Part shown: piece after piece, positions 32,139 to 43,546 of the stretch
How positions within the stretch are numbered: position 1 is the stretch's first letter
How the letters are laid out: every line of letters begins with the position of its first letter
NCBI RefSeq assembly: GCF_001956695.1
Contig: NZ_CP019070.1
Location: 2,294,001-2,358,000 of the forward strand
DNA length: 64,000 nucleotides
Direction: 5' to 3'
From: Poseidonibacter parvus
GTDB lineage: Bacteria > Campylobacterota > Campylobacteria > Campylobacterales > Arcobacteraceae
The notes under the pieces: generated by a model
What the model was told of the DNA's origin: nothing
Seen by the model: the letters and a program-made list of their open reading frames with translations, nothing else
The model's database searches: none
Translations under genes and position numbers: made by a program

Positions 32139-32813
32139 ATGAAAAAGATTATATTATCAAGCATACTAACAAGCGCACTATTATGTGCTACTGATTTACA
32201 GTCAATTGGTGTTGATGTATCTTATACAGATTCAAATGATGAAGATAAAAACATTACAATAATCAGAAAAACTCCAGATAATTGTAAAACTGTAAAGTTT
32301 GACCCAAAAACTATTTTAGGTGGTAATTTAGTTGATGCTTCAGTTCCTGCTGAATGTAAGAAAACATTTATTACATATTTAGGAAAAGTATCTCCAATAA
32401 AATACTCAGATAAAGTAGAAACATATGGGGAAGTTGAAGTTCTAGAATTTATTGACAAAGCAAAAGATGATGAGAATATGCTTTTAGTTGATTCAAGAAC
32501 TACTGATTGGTATTTAAACCAAACAATTCCATCAGCTATAAATGTTCCTTTTATTTATTTAAATAAAGGTCAATACCCTGATGATTTTTTAGATGCAATT
32601 GATACTTTAGGTGTGGAAGTTACAAAAGATGGATATGATTTTACAAATGCTAAAGAATTACTGTTATTTTGTAATGGAGTTTGGTGTGGTCAATCACCTC
32701 TATCTATGAAAAACTTAATCTCAATTGGTTACCCAGAAGAAAAACTAAAATGGTATAGAGGTGGTATTCAATCGTGGTTAAGTTTAGGATTTCCTACAAT
32801 CAAACCAAATTAA
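32139..32813 (+). CDS. Exported rhodanese-domain protein with CNGxWCGQ active-site loop
   Basis: The 224-residue protein has a signal peptide (MKKIILSSILTSALLCA) and one rhodanese domain (about 95-222), with LLVDSRTTDWYLNQTIPSAI and the active-site loop FCNGVWCGQSP holding C178 and C183. Two further cysteines (C49, C73) lie in the N-terminal extension. It is a paralogue of the rhodanese inside the sox cluster (42839-43492), sharing the same loop and the YRGGxQxW ending. A periplasmic sulfur-transfer role is likely. AAAGGA precedes the ATG. Confidence 0.88.
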   Translation: MKKIILSSILTSALLCATDLQSIGVDVSYTDSNDEDKNITIIRKTPDNCKTVKFDPKTILGGNLVDASVPAECKKTFITYLGKVSPIKYSDKVETYGEVEVLEFIDKAKDDENMLLVDSRTTDWYLNQTIPSAINVPFIYLNKGQYPDDFLDAIDTLGVEVTKDGYDFTNAKELLLFCNGVWCGQSPLSMKNLISIGYPEEKLKWYRGGIQSWLSLGFPTIKPN

Positions 32814-37062: not shown

Positions 37063-37842
37063 TTACTCTTCAAATAATGATGAAATTGCTTCTATACTTT
37101 TATCAGTCATATCTAAATCAATATGTCCTGCATCTTTAACTTCAACTAGCTGTACATCAAGTCCTTGTGCTTTCATTTTTTTATAAAAATCTTTTGTAAC
37201 ACTTGGTTTTGATATCTCATCTTTTGTTCCATAAATCATAATAAATTTTGATTCTTTATTCATTTTAGTTAAGACGTCATTTGCAAGAAGATGTTTTTCA
37301 TTTGCATAATCAGGTCTTTCATATCTACCTGCTACTAATACAACATTTTTTAAAAGTTCAGGATTTAAACCAGCTAAAGATCCACTCATCATAGCTCCAG
37401 CTGAATGACCAACAATAGTGATTTCTTTACTTTCATATTTATCTTTTAAAGCAATTACTAATTTTTCTAAGAATTGAACATACTCTTTTGTAGCTGCTTG
37501 ATGATTATACTCTTTACTTCCAATTGATTTTAATTTATTTAAAGAAGAATCTGAATAACCTGGAAGTGCTACAGCAATTGTACTAATATCACTTGACATA
37601 TTTAAATTCTCAGCAAAAGGTGCATATCTACCTAATACATTACTTCCTTCATCCCATGTTCCATGAACAATTACGATTAACTTATCATTATCATCACCTT
37701 CAAACATTGCATAATTTATACATTCATTTCCAGCATAAATAAAACCTTCACCTTTTTGCTCACAATCTTGTTTACTTACATTTTTTGCAAATGAAAAAGA
37801 AGCTGTAACAACTAACAATAAAAATAAAACTTTTTTAAACAT
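37063..37842 (-). CDS. Exported alpha/beta hydrolase
   Basis: The 259-residue protein has a signal peptide (MFKKVLFLLLVVTASFSFA) and an alpha/beta hydrolase fold. IVIVHGTWDEGSNV forms the oxyanion-hole region, VGHSAGAM holds nucleophile S147, and the likely acid and base are D208 (YGTKDEIS) and H240 (DAGHIDLD). Two N-terminal cysteines (C27, C41) could form a disulfide in the periplasm. Substrate is unknown. It is divergent from the rhodanese/MBL gene. Confidence 0.88.
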   Translation of the reverse strand: MFKKVLFLLLVVTASFSFAKNVSKQDCEQKGEGFIYAGNECINYAMFEGDDNDKLIVIVHGTWDEGSNVLGRYAPFAENLNMSSDISTIAVALPGYSDSSLNKLKSIGSKEYNHQAATKEYVQFLEKLVIALKDKYESKEITIVGHSAGAMMSGSLAGLNPELLKNVVLVAGRYERPDYANEKHLLANDVLTKMNKESKFIMIYGTKDEISKPSVTKDFYKKMKAQGLDVQLVEVKDAGHIDLDMTDKSIEAISSLFEE

Positions 37843-37884: not shown

Positions 37885-37910
37885 AAAATATTATAACTTA
37901 AGGAGAGGTT

Positions 37911-39224
37911 TTGATAAAAAATAAATATGTAAAAACAATTGTACTTGGACTATTTGTTCTATTAAGTAATCTTAACGCATTAGATATTGCAAAAATGCAA
38001 GAAGAAGCAATAAAAGAAGTAAAAGTAATTTCAACACAGGATTTAGTTAAACTTTTAGAAAAAAAACCAAATACTAAAATAATCGACGTTAGATCTAGAG
38101 CTGAAATCAATAATCAAGGTGGTTATATTAAAGCTAATAAAGTAAGTAATATACAAAGAGGAGATTTAGAGTTTTTAATTTCTCAAGAAGTGAAAATTGA
38201 TGATACATTTGTTGTTCATTGTTTTAATGGAAACAAATCACTTTTTGCAGCTAAAAGATTAAAAGATTTAGGATATAAAAATGTTCTGTATTACAAAGAT
38301 AGTTTTAAAGTTTGGAAAGAAAAGAAACTTCCAATTTCATCTTTAGATAAATACCCACAATCACTTTTATATAATAAAATACAAGAAGTAGCAAAAGATG
38401 TTTATACTTCAATTGGAATTACAGCACCCTATGAGTACGAATCAACTGCACATAATAATAACTTAGGTTTTATTGTAGGAGAAGATTCTGTATTAGTATG
38501 GAATGCAAGTTCTTCTTATCTTTTAGCACAATCATTTCATAAAGAAATCAAAAAAATTACAAATAAGCCAGTTAAATATGTTGTCTTAGAAAACTCTCAA
38601 GGACATGCAATTTTAGGTTCAAATTATTGGAAAGAACAAGGTGCAAAAATTATTGCTCATGAAATTGTTGAAGATGAAATTGCAATAAAAGGGCAAAGAA
38701 TTTTTTCACGAATGCAAAGAGTTTTAAAAGATAAATTTGAAGGAACAAAAGTTGTAGAACCTGACGAATATTTTAAAGATAGTATGACTTTTGATTTAGG
38801 AAATAAAATTGTAGAAGCTAAATATCTAGGATATGCACATGAACACAGTGATATAATACTATGGCTTCCAAAAGAAAAAATTACATTCGCAGGTGATATT
38901 GCATTTAATAATAGATTATTACCAATATTTGAAATTACAGAAACTAAAAAATGGCTAGAAGCATGGGATAAATTTACAGCATTAAATGCTAAAATAGTTG
39001 TACCAGGTCATGGTGAAGTTACAAATATGCAAACAGTAACAAAATATACAAAAGATTACCTAGTTTATTTAAGAGAAAAAGTTGAAGAAATTTTAGATGA
39101 TGATGGTGGATTAAATGATGCCTATAATATTGATATGTCTGCATTTGAGCATTTAGACACATATAAAGAACTTGGCAAACAAAACATTGCTAGAGTTTTT
39201 AAACAAATGGAATTTGAAGAGTAA
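37911..39224 (+). CDS. Exported rhodanese fused to a degenerate metallo-beta-lactamase domain (SoxH-like)
   Basis: The 437-residue protein starts at TTG with a strong AGGAGAGG site. A signal peptide (about 1-23) is followed by a rhodanese domain (about 40-140, C104 in HCFNGNKS) and an MBL-fold domain (about 165-437). Of the MBL metal sites, AHEHSD (310-314), AGD (D329) and VPGHGE (H367) are present, but HxHxDH is replaced by SQGHAILG at 229-236. The MBL part resembles SoxH and quinohemoprotein-associated hydrolases. It lies next to the sox-associated genes, convergent with the DsrE-like gene, so a role in periplasmic sulfur metabolism is likely. Confidence 0.85.
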   Translation: MIKNKYVKTIVLGLFVLLSNLNALDIAKMQEEAIKEVKVISTQDLVKLLEKKPNTKIIDVRSRAEINNQGGYIKANKVSNIQRGDLEFLISQEVKIDDTFVVHCFNGNKSLFAAKRLKDLGYKNVLYYKDSFKVWKEKKLPISSLDKYPQSLLYNKIQEVAKDVYTSIGITAPYEYESTAHNNNLGFIVGEDSVLVWNASSSYLLAQSFHKEIKKITNKPVKYVVLENSQGHAILGSNYWKEQGAKIIAHEIVEDEIAIKGQRIFSRMQRVLKDKFEGTKVVEPDEYFKDSMTFDLGNKIVEAKYLGYAHEHSDIILWLPKEKITFAGDIAFNNRLLPIFEITETKKWLEAWDKFTALNAKIVVPGHGEVTNMQTVTKYTKDYLVYLREKVEEILDDDGGLNDAYNIDMSAFEHLDTYKELGKQNIARVFKQMEFEE

Positions 39225-39238
39225 AACCTCTTCAAATT
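39211..39238. terminator. Bidirectional terminator with stop codon in loop
   Basis: A perfect 11-base stem (AATTTGAAGAG / CTCTTCAAATT) encloses the loop TAAAAC, which contains the stop codon of the plus-strand gene. The following TTTT and the convergent gene layout support a shared terminator. Confidence 0.8.
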
Positions 39239-39676
39239 TTAATAAGCATTAACTCCAATATATCCATCAATTTGTTTTTCTACAAACTCAACAATTCCTG
39301 CTTGAACATATTCTAAATCATCAATAAAATCATCTTCTGTCCATTTCATACTTTCCATAGTATTTTTACAAGCAAAAAACTCTACATCATATTCCATAAG
39401 CGAACTTATTCTCGCTAATGTTGCTTTATCAAAATCTTTTTTTAAAGCTCTCATTCCATTTCCATAAGCTACAACAGCAACTTTTAGAGATTCTTCAGGA
39501 TACTCTTTTAAAATATTATAGATTGTTCCTAAATTATGATTTACTTTATCAAGTTCAGAATCATATATTTGGAAAACAACTTTTCTTGGCTCATCAAAAG
39601 AAGGCTGAGGGTTAGAAAAAGTTGATTCTCCATAAACAAAAACTGTAAAAAATAAAACTATTAATAAATTTTTCAT
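39239..39676 (-). CDS. Exported DsrE-family protein
   Basis: The 145-residue protein has a signal peptide (about 1-16) and a DsrE/DsrF-like fold: KVVFQIYDSELDKVNHNLGT, VAVVAYGNGMRALKK and a conserved Cys103 in FFACKNTM. DsrE-type proteins carry or reduce sulfur on such cysteines, although many exported members have no assigned function. It is the last gene of the minus-strand run behind soxB, 2 bases from the MOSC gene. Confidence 0.85.
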   Translation of the reverse strand: MKNLLIVLFFTVFVYGESTFSNPQPSFDEPRKVVFQIYDSELDKVNHNLGTIYNILKEYPEESLKVAVVAYGNGMRALKKDFDKATLARISSLMEYDVEFFACKNTMESMKWTEDDFIDDLEYVQAGIVEFVEKQIDGYIGVNAY

Positions 39677-39678
39677 TC

Positions 39679-40125
39679 TTATTCCTTTATATAAACTTCA
39701 TTTTCTTTTTTTATTATACCACTGCTAAGTATTTTACAATATAAACCTCTATGATCTTTTACTAAACTTGGTAATTCTTTTCCAAAAACGCTCAAGTGGT
39801 TACAAATAGTACAATTTTGAGTAATTTCTAATTTAACACTTCCTATTACAAAAACTGTACCAATTTTATATTCATGAGGATTAAAATCGAATAATATATT
39901 TTCTCCTAAACTTCCTAATTGTAAATCAATCTTATTTTCTTCTGCAATATTATATGCAACTGAACCTACAACCATCACAGACTTATCTTCATCTTTTCCT
40001 GCAAATTTGTCATCTTTAATTCCAAAACCATTAATAATGTCAAGCTCATTTACTTTAGGTCTAGGTAGTCCTGATGAGTCTTTTTTTGCACTAAATATTT
40101 CAATTACTTTCCCAATTTTTTTCAT
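39679..40125 (-). CDS. MOSC domain protein
   Basis: The 148-residue protein is a small stand-alone MOSC domain. It has FGIKDDKFAGKDEDKSVMVV, the typical LGSLGENILF, KIGTVFVIGSVKLEITQNCT with Cys residues at TICNHL, and DHRGLYCKILSSG. MOSC domains occur in molybdenum-cofactor sulfurases and as sulfur carriers with a conserved Cys. A link to the Mo-dependent SoxC is possible but not shown. It touches the cytochrome/thioredoxin gene directly. Confidence 0.85.
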   Translation of the reverse strand: MKKIGKVIEIFSAKKDSSGLPRPKVNELDIINGFGIKDDKFAGKDEDKSVMVVGSVAYNIAEENKIDLQLGSLGENILFDFNPHEYKIGTVFVIGSVKLEITQNCTICNHLSVFGKELPSLVKDHRGLYCKILSSGIIKKENEVYIKE

Positions 40126-40932
40126 TTATTTATTGTTTTCCTTTAATATTAATAAAAAATCTTTTTTATTCCATGAACCGGGATATTTGTTTTTTAATTT
40201 ACCATTATTTTCTAAAGCAAAAAAAGTGGGTGTCATACCTCTATATCCTTTTGCAAGGTTAAAAGGCAATTTAACATCTTCAATATCAATTTTTAAAAAG
40301 AGATAATCTTCATCTATTTTATTTTTTACTTCATTTAAAGACAAAACTTCTTTGTCCATCTTTTTACAAAAATGGCAAGTTTTAGATGTAGCATAAACTA
40401 GTATTTTTTTATTTTCTTTTTTTGCATCATTTAATAATTCAGCTTCATTATAATTTTTAGATAACACTCTAATCTCTTTTTTTGTATTCTTTAATCTTTC
40501 TTTTTTATAATTCATAAAATATATAGCTAAAGATGATAAATCTTCATCATTTAAATTATAATTATTTGAAAGTTTTTTATCATAATACTTTATAATTGAA
40601 GGTTCACAAATACTATTATTTAAATCAGGATTTGTAAGATAACTCTTTAAATATTCTTCTATCTCAATTTGTTGCATTTCTAAATCATTATTATCACCTA
40701 TATGCTTTGGACTATCAATTATTGCATAAGCAAGCATATTCTCAGTTGGATATTTTAGATTTAAAAGTTTATTTTCTTTTTCAAAAAAGTTTGTTTTTAA
40801 TGTTTTCATATCAATAAATTTTCCATGACATGAAGAGCATTTTTGTAAAAATATTTTTTCACCATCTTTAAAGTTTGCGTTTAAAGATGAAATAAATGTT
40901 ATAAAAATTAGTAGTAAAGCTTTTTTAAGCAA
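40126..40932 (-). CDS. Periplasmic cytochrome c - thioredoxin fusion (SoxW-like)
   Basis: The 268-residue protein starts at TTG (AAGGAA six bases before it) with a signal peptide of about 19 residues. A class I cytochrome c domain follows with CSSCH at 32-36. After a helical linker, a thioredoxin-like domain has CHFC at 186-189 and the cis-proline motif GMTPTFF. Thioredoxin-like SoxW proteins support Sox reactions by keeping SoxY reduced; a covalent heme domain would add an electron outlet. The fusion is read within one continuous frame. It lies behind soxB, separated by two large hairpins. Confidence 0.85.
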   Translation of the reverse strand: MLKKALLLIFITFISSLNANFKDGEKIFLQKCSSCHGKFIDMKTLKTNFFEKENKLLNLKYPTENMLAYAIIDSPKHIGDNNDLEMQQIEIEEYLKSYLTNPDLNNSICEPSIIKYYDKKLSNNYNLNDEDLSSLAIYFMNYKKERLKNTKKEIRVLSKNYNEAELLNDAKKENKKILVYATSKTCHFCKKMDKEVLSLNEVKNKIDEDYLFLKIDIEDVKLPFNLAKGYRGMTPTFFALENNGKLKNKYPGSWNKKDFLLILKENNK

Positions 40933-41032: not shown

Positions 41033-42811
41033 CTATATAACAATTCCTGGGTTATTTTTAACACCAATGATATCTGGAGTATCAACTCTTAAGTTTGCAA
41101 TATGTTTTACATTTCCTAAGTAAGTTTCAACTGTTTCCCAAACTGGTTCACCTGGTGATTTAGCACCAACAGTTGACCAACCTGCTACTTTATAAGATTT
41201 ACTAGCTTCAAGTTTTTTACCATTTTTAGTAAGTTGGATATCAGAAATTCTTTCACCCATCTTAGCTTTTGGATCAATTTTATAAGATATTCCACCAGTT
41301 CTTACCATATCACCACCTTGTTGGTAGAATGGATCTGCATTAAATAAGTTATCAGCAACATCTTCAAGAATATCTTTAATTCCTTGCCCTGTTATATCTC
41401 TTGCATAAGTTTCAGGATAAGTCATAGCTGTCTGTGTCATTAAATCATCAAATGTGATATCTTGACCTGGCATAACTGTTGTTCCCCATCTAAATCCTGG
41501 AGAAAGAGAAATATCTGCACCTTTTACATCAATTAATGCATCACAAATAATTTGATCCCATGAACCATTAAAGTTACCACGTCTAAATAATGTTTCTTCA
41601 GTTGTAGCAACAGTTCTATTTAAATCTTTAATATATGGTAATCGCACTTTTTCAATATAAGCTTTCATTTCTTTATCTTCAGGAACTAAATCAGAGAAGA
41701 TTGGAAGAAGTGTAAATTTAAAGTCTTTGATTTTTCCATTTTGAATATCTAAATCAAGAACATTTAAGAACTTACCATTAGAACCAGCATTACAAACATA
41801 TGTAGTACCATTTTCATTCTTAACAGGAACAGCTTCTGGAACACCATCATGAGTATGTCCACCCATAATAAAGTCAATACCAGTACATACTTCTGCCATT
41901 TTTTGATCAACATCAAAACCATTATGAGATAAAACAATAACAGCGTCAGGTTTTTCTTCTTCTCTTACTTGATCAACCAACTCTTGCATTCCATCATCAT
42001 TAATACCAAATGTCCAATCTGGAATAAATCTTTGAGGATTTGCAATAGTAGTATAAGGGAAAGCTTGACCAATAATTGCAACTCTTGCATTACCCATTTT
42101 TTTAATTGTGTACGGTTTAAACGCGTGACCTGTATCTTCGTCATAAGCTTGCATCGCAACTTCAGTTTCTTCCATTAAGGCGTCTTCTTTTACCATAACA
42201 TTTTGAGCTAAGAATTCAGCATCAAGTAATTTAACATTTTCTAAAACTTCTTCAGCTTTATATGTAAATTCCCAATGCCCAACAGCAACATCAACGCCAA
42301 GTAAGTTCATAGCACCAACCATATCTTTACCACGAGTGTAAAGAGCTGTTGCACTACCTTGCCAAGTGTCACCACCATCCATCATAAGAGTTTTTTCAGC
42401 TCCAAAATTATTTGTTAAATGATCAATTACTGTTTTAAGTTGAGCAAATCCACCTACTCTACCCATAACTTTTGCATGCTTTTCAAAGTTTACACAAGAA
42501 TATGCATATTCTAATCTCTTATTACCTTTTATACCATAGTAATCTAATAGTTTATCACCAACAATATGAGGTGGTTTTCCATAATTACCATGGAAACCTA
42601 AGTTGACACTTGGTTCTCTAAAGTATACTGGTAATAATTGAGCATGAGAATCTGTCATGTGAAGAAGTCTTACATTACCAAAATTCTGTAGCTTATAGTA
42701 ATCTTCTAATTTATTTGTCTCAACTGATCTAGTATGAGAGTTTGCAAACACTGGTGCAGCACCAAGTACTGACATCATATATACAAATTCTCTTCTACTT
42801 AATTTACTCAT
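41033..42811 (-). CDS. soxB: SoxB, sulfate thiol esterase of the Sox complex
   Basis: The 592-residue protein has a Tat-like start (RR at 6-7 in LSRREFVYMM) and the SoxB metallophosphoesterase-type domain: HMTDSHAQLLP (D54, H56), DGGDTWQGSATALYTRG, the SoxB-typical VAVGHWEFTY and GGHTHDGVPEAV. The C-terminal 5'-nucleotidase-like domain follows (about 380-592). SoxB hydrolyses sulfonate from SoxY-bound cysteine in the periplasm using two Mn ions. It is at the 3' end of the sox run, 27 bases behind the rhodanese gene. Confidence 0.97.
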   Translation of the reverse strand: MSKLSRREFVYMMSVLGAAPVFANSHTRSVETNKLEDYYKLQNFGNVRLLHMTDSHAQLLPVYFREPSVNLGFHGNYGKPPHIVGDKLLDYYGIKGNKRLEYAYSCVNFEKHAKVMGRVGGFAQLKTVIDHLTNNFGAEKTLMMDGGDTWQGSATALYTRGKDMVGAMNLLGVDVAVGHWEFTYKAEEVLENVKLLDAEFLAQNVMVKEDALMEETEVAMQAYDEDTGHAFKPYTIKKMGNARVAIIGQAFPYTTIANPQRFIPDWTFGINDDGMQELVDQVREEEKPDAVIVLSHNGFDVDQKMAEVCTGIDFIMGGHTHDGVPEAVPVKNENGTTYVCNAGSNGKFLNVLDLDIQNGKIKDFKFTLLPIFSDLVPEDKEMKAYIEKVRLPYIKDLNRTVATTEETLFRRGNFNGSWDQIICDALIDVKGADISLSPGFRWGTTVMPGQDITFDDLMTQTAMTYPETYARDITGQGIKDILEDVADNLFNADPFYQQGGDMVRTGGISYKIDPKAKMGERISDIQLTKNGKKLEASKSYKVAGWSTVGAKSPGEPVWETVETYLGNVKHIANLRVDTPDIIGVKNNPGIVI

Positions 42812-42838: not shown

Positions 42839-43492
42839 TTATTCCCCAGATCCTACAACAGTAAAACCTAATGAAGTCCAAGCTTGCATACCACCTCTGT
42901 AGTATTTAATCTTTTCAACTGGATACCCCATTTTTAATAATGCAAATTCAGCGTTTTTAACCATACCTGGAGTTTGTCCACACCAGTAACCATTACAATA
43001 TAATGCTAAAGTTTTTGCTTTTGAAAAATCTAAAGTACCATCGTCATTTTGAACAACACCCATTTCATCTTCCATCATTTCAATAGCAGTATCTTTTTCA
43101 TCAAAATTTGTAAAAGGAACATTAACTGCTCCTGGAATTCTTAACTTTGCAAACCAACCTGGCTTTCTTGAATCAATAATTGCAATATTTTCATCAGTTT
43201 GAGCTTTTTTCATATACTCAATAAACTCTAATTCACCTAATGTTTCTAAACCATCAGCTAAAGAAATTGGTTGAGGAGCACCTCTAAAAGTTGTTTCATA
43301 TAATGGAGAAATTTTATTAGTTTTTGATTGATTTCTCATAATTGTAAATTTTTCATCATTTAATTCCATATCAATAGATTTAACACCTTTTGAAATTGGA
43401 ACATAATTATATGTAGCTTCTGCACTAAAAGCTGAACTTACTAGTAATCCAGAAAATGCAGATGCAATAAGTAATTTATTTAAAAGTTTCAT
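42839..43492 (-). CDS. Exported rhodanese in the sox cluster
   Basis: The ATG at 43492 follows AAGGAA and starts a clear signal peptide (MKLLNKLLIASAFSGLLVSS); an upstream ATG at 43525 would add 11 unlikely residues and sit in the terminator region. The 217-residue product has a single rhodanese domain with the loop LYCNGYWCGQTP (C166, C171). It closely resembles the protein at 32139-32813. It would move sulfane sulfur in the periplasm, perhaps between thiosulfate and SoxYZ. Confidence 0.88.
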   Translation of the reverse strand: MKLLNKLLIASAFSGLLVSSAFSAEATYNYVPISKGVKSIDMELNDEKFTIMRNQSKTNKISPLYETTFRGAPQPISLADGLETLGELEFIEYMKKAQTDENIAIIDSRKPGWFAKLRIPGAVNVPFTNFDEKDTAIEMMEDEMGVVQNDDGTLDFSKAKTLALYCNGYWCGQTPGMVKNAEFALLKMGYPVEKIKYYRGGMQAWTSLGFTVVGSGE

Positions 43493-43514
43493 TTTATTCC
43501 TTTTATTTAGTAAA

Positions 43515-43546
43515 AAAAAAGCCAAGAAAAAACTCTTGACTTTTTT
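43515..43546 (-). terminator. Intrinsic terminator within the sox cluster
   Basis: On the minus strand a 13-base stem (AAAAAAG, one G-U wobble, CAAGA, 6-base loop) is followed directly by nine T residues. It lies between the unknown periplasmic gene and the rhodanese/soxB pair, so it should lower or separate expression of the two parts. Confidence 0.75.

Follow-up and report, generated by a model that had tools for sequence, protein, structure and literature searches.

An exported-looking protein encoded beside the sox genes of Poseidonibacter parvus joins a rhodanese to an MBL domain whose HxHxDH metal motif has been replaced by a different, conserved motif. Our best reading of this fusion is an exported, SoxH-like accessory of the Sox system whose metal site is either remodelled or vestigial and to which a sulfurtransferase is joined. 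As judged from sequence comparison, it is a real, conserved variant of the SoxH-like MBL proteins and not a decayed one, and it belongs to a SoxH-like MBL clade that is without a curated name among the models used. The open reading frame lies at 37911–39224 on the plus strand of the window (the whole 64,000-nucleotide stretch of DNA that was analysed), where the initial annotation had placed it. The gene and its parts are as follows.

37900–37908, plus strand: ribosome-binding-site-like AAGGAGAGG, immediately 5′ of the TTG start (read from the sequence)
37911–39224, plus strand: rhodanese–MBL fusion gene, 437 aa, TTG start (open reading frame, translation, Pfam, orthologues)
37911–37985, plus strand: putative Sec signal peptide, about residues 1–25 (by eye; AlphaFold2 helix 5–36)
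38034–38324, plus strand: rhodanese domain, residues 42–138 (Pfam)
38220–38222, plus strand: rhodanese Cys104 (active-site Cys column)
38451–38462, plus strand: HNNN, residues 181–184, conserved family signature (N182–N184 in 72/72 and H181 in 71/72 core rows)
38460–39011, plus strand: MBL domain, residues 184–367 (Pfam; the fold match is wider, ~145–437)
38592–38609, plus strand: NSQGHA, residues 228–233, HxHxDH column (alignment with HxHDDH relatives)
38838–38840, plus strand: H310 (= B1/B2 lactamase H196), kept (72/72 core rows; alignment with B2 enzymes)
38895–38897, plus strand: D329 (column of B1/B2 Cys221; bridging Asp in glyoxalase II-type enzymes), kept (72/72 core rows; alignment)
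39009–39011, plus strand: H367 (= H263), kept (70/71 core rows with a letter there)

By Pfam score, residues 42–138 belong to the rhodanese family (PF00581, 43.8 bits, cut-off 22.2) and residues 184–367 to the MBL superfamily (Lactamase_B, PF00753, 34.2 bits, cut-off 22.7). The rhodanese retains its active-site residue, Cys104, as had been annotated. The putative signal peptide, recognized by eye, is a hydrophobic N-terminus ending in NLNA-LD.

To locate the motif column, we aligned the protein with relatives from the same bacterial family that have HxHDDH. In the place of the HxHxDH of the MBL superfamily, the fusion reads N228-S-Q230-G-H232-A233, while AHEHSD (H310), AGD (D329) and PGHGE (H367) remain, in agreement with the initial annotation. 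Its statement that all four ligands of the first motif are missing needs qualification: all four ligand letters are changed and the two His-ligand columns are gone, but the column of the Asp ligand holds an invariant His, which leaves one possible ligand. The alignment supports its further claim that the normal dinuclear site would be lost.

The replacement motif was followed through a core group of 72 rows. N228 and H232 were found in 72/72 core rows covering the motif, Q230 in 71/72 (the exception, L132, has Asp) and A233 in 70/72 (one Gly, one Ser); H310 and D329 are likewise invariant (72/72). The core group was chosen by a motif expression, which makes these counts circular for N228 and H232; in the score-ordered list that served as a check, no motif-covering row above 176 bits was without NxQxH. 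The motif counts leave out L020, which ends before the motif, the two open reading frame pieces of L075 (split frame), the truncated L063, the interrupted copy L134 (G247) and the second partial open reading frame of L013, and three deep rows with NxQGHA (L098, L103 and L109) were counted apart from the core. R335, which is among the invariant or near-invariant residues of the 72 rows, N182–N184 and several Gly are conserved as strictly as the candidate ligands, so that conservation by itself is no proof of a metal site.

At the level of sequence, the replacement motif is far beyond chance and strictly conserved across two phyla, and its near-strict conservation in the core rows argues against decay; rather than being a broken copy, the fusion probably still functions, with its chemistry altered. 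The initial picture of one odd protein that lost its motif holds with respect to the replacement, but the protein is one member of an entire clade, the invariant motif of which is partly common to a sister clade. A group of MBL proteins with N.HDDR (L002 of the same genome, L021–L023 and L135–L137) has Glu or Asn for H310 and Asn for D329. Since that group has lost both residues and the NxQxHA clade retains them, the change in the NxQxHA clade is of a different type from erosion. The P. parvus genome encodes a second non-canonical MBL protein (L153:4911–5825; G000:C1 ~2638410–2639324) with NFHDDR and with Asn for both H310 and D329. By eye, its gene lies between ArsC-like phosphatase and ArsB-like transporter genes and a permease-like gene, which suggests an arsenic-type operon.

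Of 104 genomes from the same bacterial family, 19 have an orthologue of the fusion (56–100% identity, one of them a fragment), including 6 of the 10 same-genus genomes. Across the phylum, 18 of 298 Campylobacterota gave a match at E 1e-30. By score (≥ 555 bits), just three of these qualify as orthologues, and all three belong to the window's own family; the remaining 15 are 28–33% identical, and the eleven that were read have HxHDDH (eight) or N.HDDR (three). A scan of genome contigs yielded 45 loci, including Thioglobus/SUP05, a Bathymodiolus symbiont, Thiobacillus, Thiohalocapsa, Leucothrix, Marinobacterium, Neptunomonas and two alphaproteobacterial bins, and the relatives are Campylobacterota together with alpha-, beta- and gammaproteobacterial sulfur oxidisers. 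Within the terms searched, no description of the NxQxHA clade was found in what the open-licence literature offered in full or in part.

In an MBL-domain tree of 117 rows, drawn with a midpoint root, the NxQxH and GxQDHR rows all fell on one side of a branch with support 100/96 (90 rows, L132 included), and support for the core NxQxH group was 98/85 (71 rows, L132 included). The sister clade consists of GxQDHR rows (L097, L099–L102, L104–L108, L110–L113, L115 and L116; one reads GSEDHR) with an invariant Arg in place of the last His of the HxHxDH column; both clades have Q at the position of the second His and His at that of the Asp. All 18 Campylobacterota rows fall into a single group (100/100) that is nested in proteobacterial diversity and joins 13 SUP05-type rows (100/96). 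On the simplest reading of this nesting, the Arcobacteraceae gene was probably acquired by transfer from a SUP05-like donor. Two SUP05-type contigs carry tandem double copies of the rhodanese–NxQxHA gene (L055:7977–10768 and L047:3386–5950), the second copies of which make up a branch of their own.

The best NCBIfam matches over the whole MBL domain were the SoxH-related metallohydrolases TIGR04559 (158.5 bits, cut-off 280) and TIGR04558 (124, cut-off 300), whose sox context the fusion shares. It differs from them in scoring far under both cut-offs, in its replaced HxHxDH and in having the rhodanese fused rather than separate. What stands of the annotated ‘SoxH-like’ character is therefore nearest kinship and sox-cluster context; formal membership fails. 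The HxHDDH MBL protein of one Arcobacteraceae sox cluster (G084) is also under the TIGR04558/TIGR04559 cut-offs (157.4 and 149.9). SoxH itself was proposed to be a thiol hydrolase that releases sulfate from SoxY (PMC10045233, in excerpt) and was called a protein of unknown function in the accessible part of PMC11237559, which cites work linking it to SoxB-independent sulfate release in Sulfurimonas.

The fusion gene is 1.8 kb from soxB, and the sulfur genes that it had been said to adjoin proved to be real. The surrounding features are as follows.

37063–37842, minus strand: exported-looking alpha/beta hydrolase, divergent neighbour (Pfam; conserved neighbour)
39211–39238, no strand assigned: terminator-like hairpin between the converging fusion and DsrE-like genes (three sites found against a shuffle mean of 0.8)
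39239–39676, minus strand: DsrE-like protein (PF02635; conserved neighbour)
39679–40125, minus strand: MOSC-domain protein (PF03473; conserved neighbour)
40126–40932, minus strand: SoxW-like protein, haem motif plus thioredoxin-like (PF13098; CxxCH read directly; conserved neighbour)
41033–42811, minus strand: soxB (TIGR04486, 836 bits, cut-off 550)

Two further exported-looking rhodanese-like proteins are encoded nearby (32139–32813 and 42839–43525 of the window), one adjoining soxB and the other beside a chemoreceptor gene. Related arrangements are on record: according to extracts of PMC10045233, soxH1, dsrE and soxW of Sulfurovum indicum together lie upstream of soxABXYZ, and soxH1 is upregulated on thiosulfate; in quinoprotein modules, a SoxH-like protein is described as paired with a SoxYZ-like and a rhodanese-domain protein (PMC12997753, partial text).

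We read 20 sox regions, chosen for an MBL match near soxB or as same-genus comparisons. In 15 of them a canonical HxHDDH MBL gene lies on the strand opposite to soxB and on the far side of the alpha/beta hydrolase gene, in some regions with one or two intervening genes, and in G102 it follows soxB directly on the same strand. The region of G094 has the rhodanese–NxQxHA gene only, between the DsrE and hydrolase genes, that of G084 has both versions, each in its own slot, and those of G091 and G099, from the same genus, have neither. These slots indicate that both MBL versions belong to the same cluster. The canonical SoxH-like MBL of the Arcobacteraceae thus shares with the fusion the sox cluster and the orientation relative to soxB, but it occupies a slot beyond the hydrolase, is without a rhodanese, keeps all ligands and is ~25–30% identical.

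The association with soxB extends beyond the window. In the class sample (274 genomes), all 18 with an orthologue (≥ 260 bits) also had a soxB match (E 1e-50 or better), as compared with 116 of 274 overall (Fisher p 8e-8, with related species in the sample and kinship ignored). Of 35 carrier genomes outside Campylobacterota, 33 had soxB over the cut-off, one gave a partial match and in one no soxB was seen. Within the own family, the difference (18/19 carriers versus 83/104 genomes) was not significant (p 0.11), because soxB is common there. In Proteobacteria the gene mostly does not lie near sox genes: of the sox genes of the window, only the thioredoxin-like gene recurred in the 6 kb examined around the proteobacterial loci. 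At five SUP05-type loci a thioredoxin-like gene directly follows the fusion gene (one of the five confirmed with Pfam), and in the SUP05-type loci tested for it (3/3) a DUF302 protein is encoded on the other side of the fusion gene. These DUF302 genes are divergent from the fusion gene (L041:7105–7908, L040:420–1058 and L071:7346–7864), and at least one of the proteins has an Asn/Phe-rich low-complexity N-terminal part.

A fused rhodanese was found in 49 of the 72 core rows; 45 of the 49 retain the active-site Cys (counting L040, which is gapped in one alignment and has Cys in another), and it is replaced by Asp in L059–L061 and by Ser in L071. The 23 rows without a rhodanese include Marinobacterium, Neptunomonas, several N-termini that look lipoprotein-like by eye and three long N-terminal extensions. 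With the rhodanese present in some rows only, the MBL domain is the constant part of the family, and the absence of the rhodanese from 23/72 rows and the Cys replacements in 4/49 indicate that sulfur transfer by a fused rhodanese is not essential to the clade. The long extensions occur at L076:6674–8542, L146:1308–3140 and L147:344–2146; that of the gammaproteobacterial L076 is dienelactone-hydrolase-like by Pfam, and L146 and L147 read as similar long open reading frames. We considered whether this domain and the alpha/beta hydrolase of the window might be a shared partner and rejected it, as the two have no detectable homology (phmmer E 0.021, score 0.3).

AlphaFold2, run with 46 aligned sequences, gave a model with pLDDT 90.0 and pTM 0.74. 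The best PDB fold match listed was 8d2z (Z 31.9, 2.8 Å over 274 residues), followed by the chlorothalonil dehalogenase 6uxu (Z 31.5, 2.4 Å over 278 residues) and then by the B2 enzymes Sfh-I and CphA (Z ~26.7), with many B1/B2 enzymes at Z ~25–27. In the Sfh-I alignment, the B2 motif NYHTDR falls on NSQGHA and the B2 GNC on AGD, and a YWK segment is common to both. We take N228 to be equivalent to N116, Q230 to H118, H232 to D120, A233 to R121 and D329 to C221. The subclass B2 lactamases (CphA, Sfh-I) thus share with the fusion the Asn in the first-His column, the YWK segment and a near-top fold match, but they keep H118, D120 and C221, for which the fusion has Q230, H232 and D329. Its score with the B2 model NF033087 is 73.1 bits against a cut-off of 240, and the column of the Cys221 ligand holds D329. 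B2 lactamases carry a single metal, at the Zn2 position, and the entries 1x8g and 3sd9 are mono-zinc by title. The catalytic Zn of 6uxu, an enzyme of like fold, is also mononuclear, with Asp116, His117, Asn216 and His257 as ligands (PMC12784990, available portion); the columns of Asp116/His117 read His/Ala in the fusion, an equivalence by motif position only.

Since the B2 enzymes and 6uxu hold one metal at the Zn2 position, H232, D329 and H367 could by analogy form a single His–Asp–His site there. Such a site is a third option beside the ‘new chemistry or a binding module’ of the initial annotation, which did not name it. We therefore propose, tentatively and with the case for and against it nearly balanced, that the protein is an exported Sox accessory made up of a rhodanese and a SoxH-like MBL domain that has lost its dinuclear site, holds a single metal at the former Zn2 position and acts on Sox-carried sulfur. 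The normal dinuclear site would be gone; one metal would be held by H232, D329 and H367, with H310 nearby and with N228 and Q230 lining the pocket, much as in the single-metal sites of the B2 lactamases and the chlorothalonil dehalogenase but with His for Asp. A point against H232 as a ligand is the greater length of His as compared with the original Asp. In the periplasm, thiosulfate, polysulfide or SoxY would supply sulfane sulfur or an adduct of sulfur to Cys104 of the rhodanese, and sulfur species on SoxYZ or on the protein's own rhodanese would be hydrolysed or rearranged by the MBL domain. The neighbouring thioredoxin- and DsrE-like proteins may serve as reductant and sulfur relay.

The main rival is a pseudo-hydrolase that binds no metal: its MBL fold would serve as a module for binding or scaffolding SoxYZ or polysulfide, and the chemistry would fall to the rhodanese in those proteins that have one. 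We regard this as rather unlikely, although two first-motif columns are amides (N and Q) and one is Ala, the rhodanese is fused in most core rows and the relative 8d2z is also off-motif (HYHAVR). A scaffold would not need an invariant H310 and D329 or a nearly invariant H367, and the rows without a rhodanese indicate that serving as a scaffold for a fused one is not a general role.

Improbable, in our view, is an iron-dependent activity like that of a sulfur dioxygenase, in which H232, D329 and H367 would bind Fe(II) as a 2-His-1-carboxylate triad and persulfide would be oxidized in functional analogy to persulfide dioxygenase (PDO). The three residues are indeed a 2-His-1-Asp set. The glutathione-dependent PDO reaction is cytoplasmic, however, whereas the present protein looks exported, and none of the 51 PDB sequences matched at E 1e-3 bears the name of a persulfide or sulfur dioxygenase. 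Rhodanese–PDO fusions exist in cable bacteria and resemble the present protein in the order of domains, with the rhodanese before the MBL domain, and in a shortened motif (PMC13047784, as far as its accessible sections go). In the same sections, the metal ligand of PDO is the first His of HxHxDH, and the shortened HXQADY of the cable bacteria still has it; the NxQxHA protein does not. Membership in the PDO family was rejected on this ground, as the first-His Fe ligand is Asn in 72/72 core rows.

An ordinary decaying soxH copy has next to nothing in its favour beyond the complete absence of the gene from some same-genus members and is refuted by conservation: the open reading frames are intact and the replacement motif is invariant in two phyla, and decay would not end in identical N, Q, H and A residues throughout. 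Still less credible is a normal dinuclear MBL with HxHxDH elsewhere in the domain, a misalignment for which we found no supporting point and which the alignment refutes, as the flanks of the motif are gap-free against the HxHDDH relatives and against the B2 enzymes, including YWK, and a reading of the domain and of the whole rhodanese–MBL protein revealed no second HxHxDH-like motif, the one finding that the initial annotation had said would overturn its claim.

In its boldest form, the single-metal reading of this exported Sox accessory would place the NxQxHA and GxQDHR proteins in a novel MBL-fold enzyme lineage that uses one metal, bound by His–Asp–His at Zn2, and that evolved among Sox sulfur oxidisers and performs a step on SoxYZ-bound sulfane or persulfide sulfur that no known Sox component performs; this is speculative and, on balance, we think it unlikely. 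The clade bears on what SoxH-type MBL proteins do in a pathway of major importance for bacterial sulfur oxidation. At the same sox cluster, bacteria carry the standard-motif gene, the rewritten gene, both (at least one genome) or neither (at least two), which amounts to a natural experiment, and N228, Q230, H232, D329 and H367 provide a defined set of residues with which to address role and metal binding. For MBL proteins at large, a ‘lost’ motif need not mean a dead protein.
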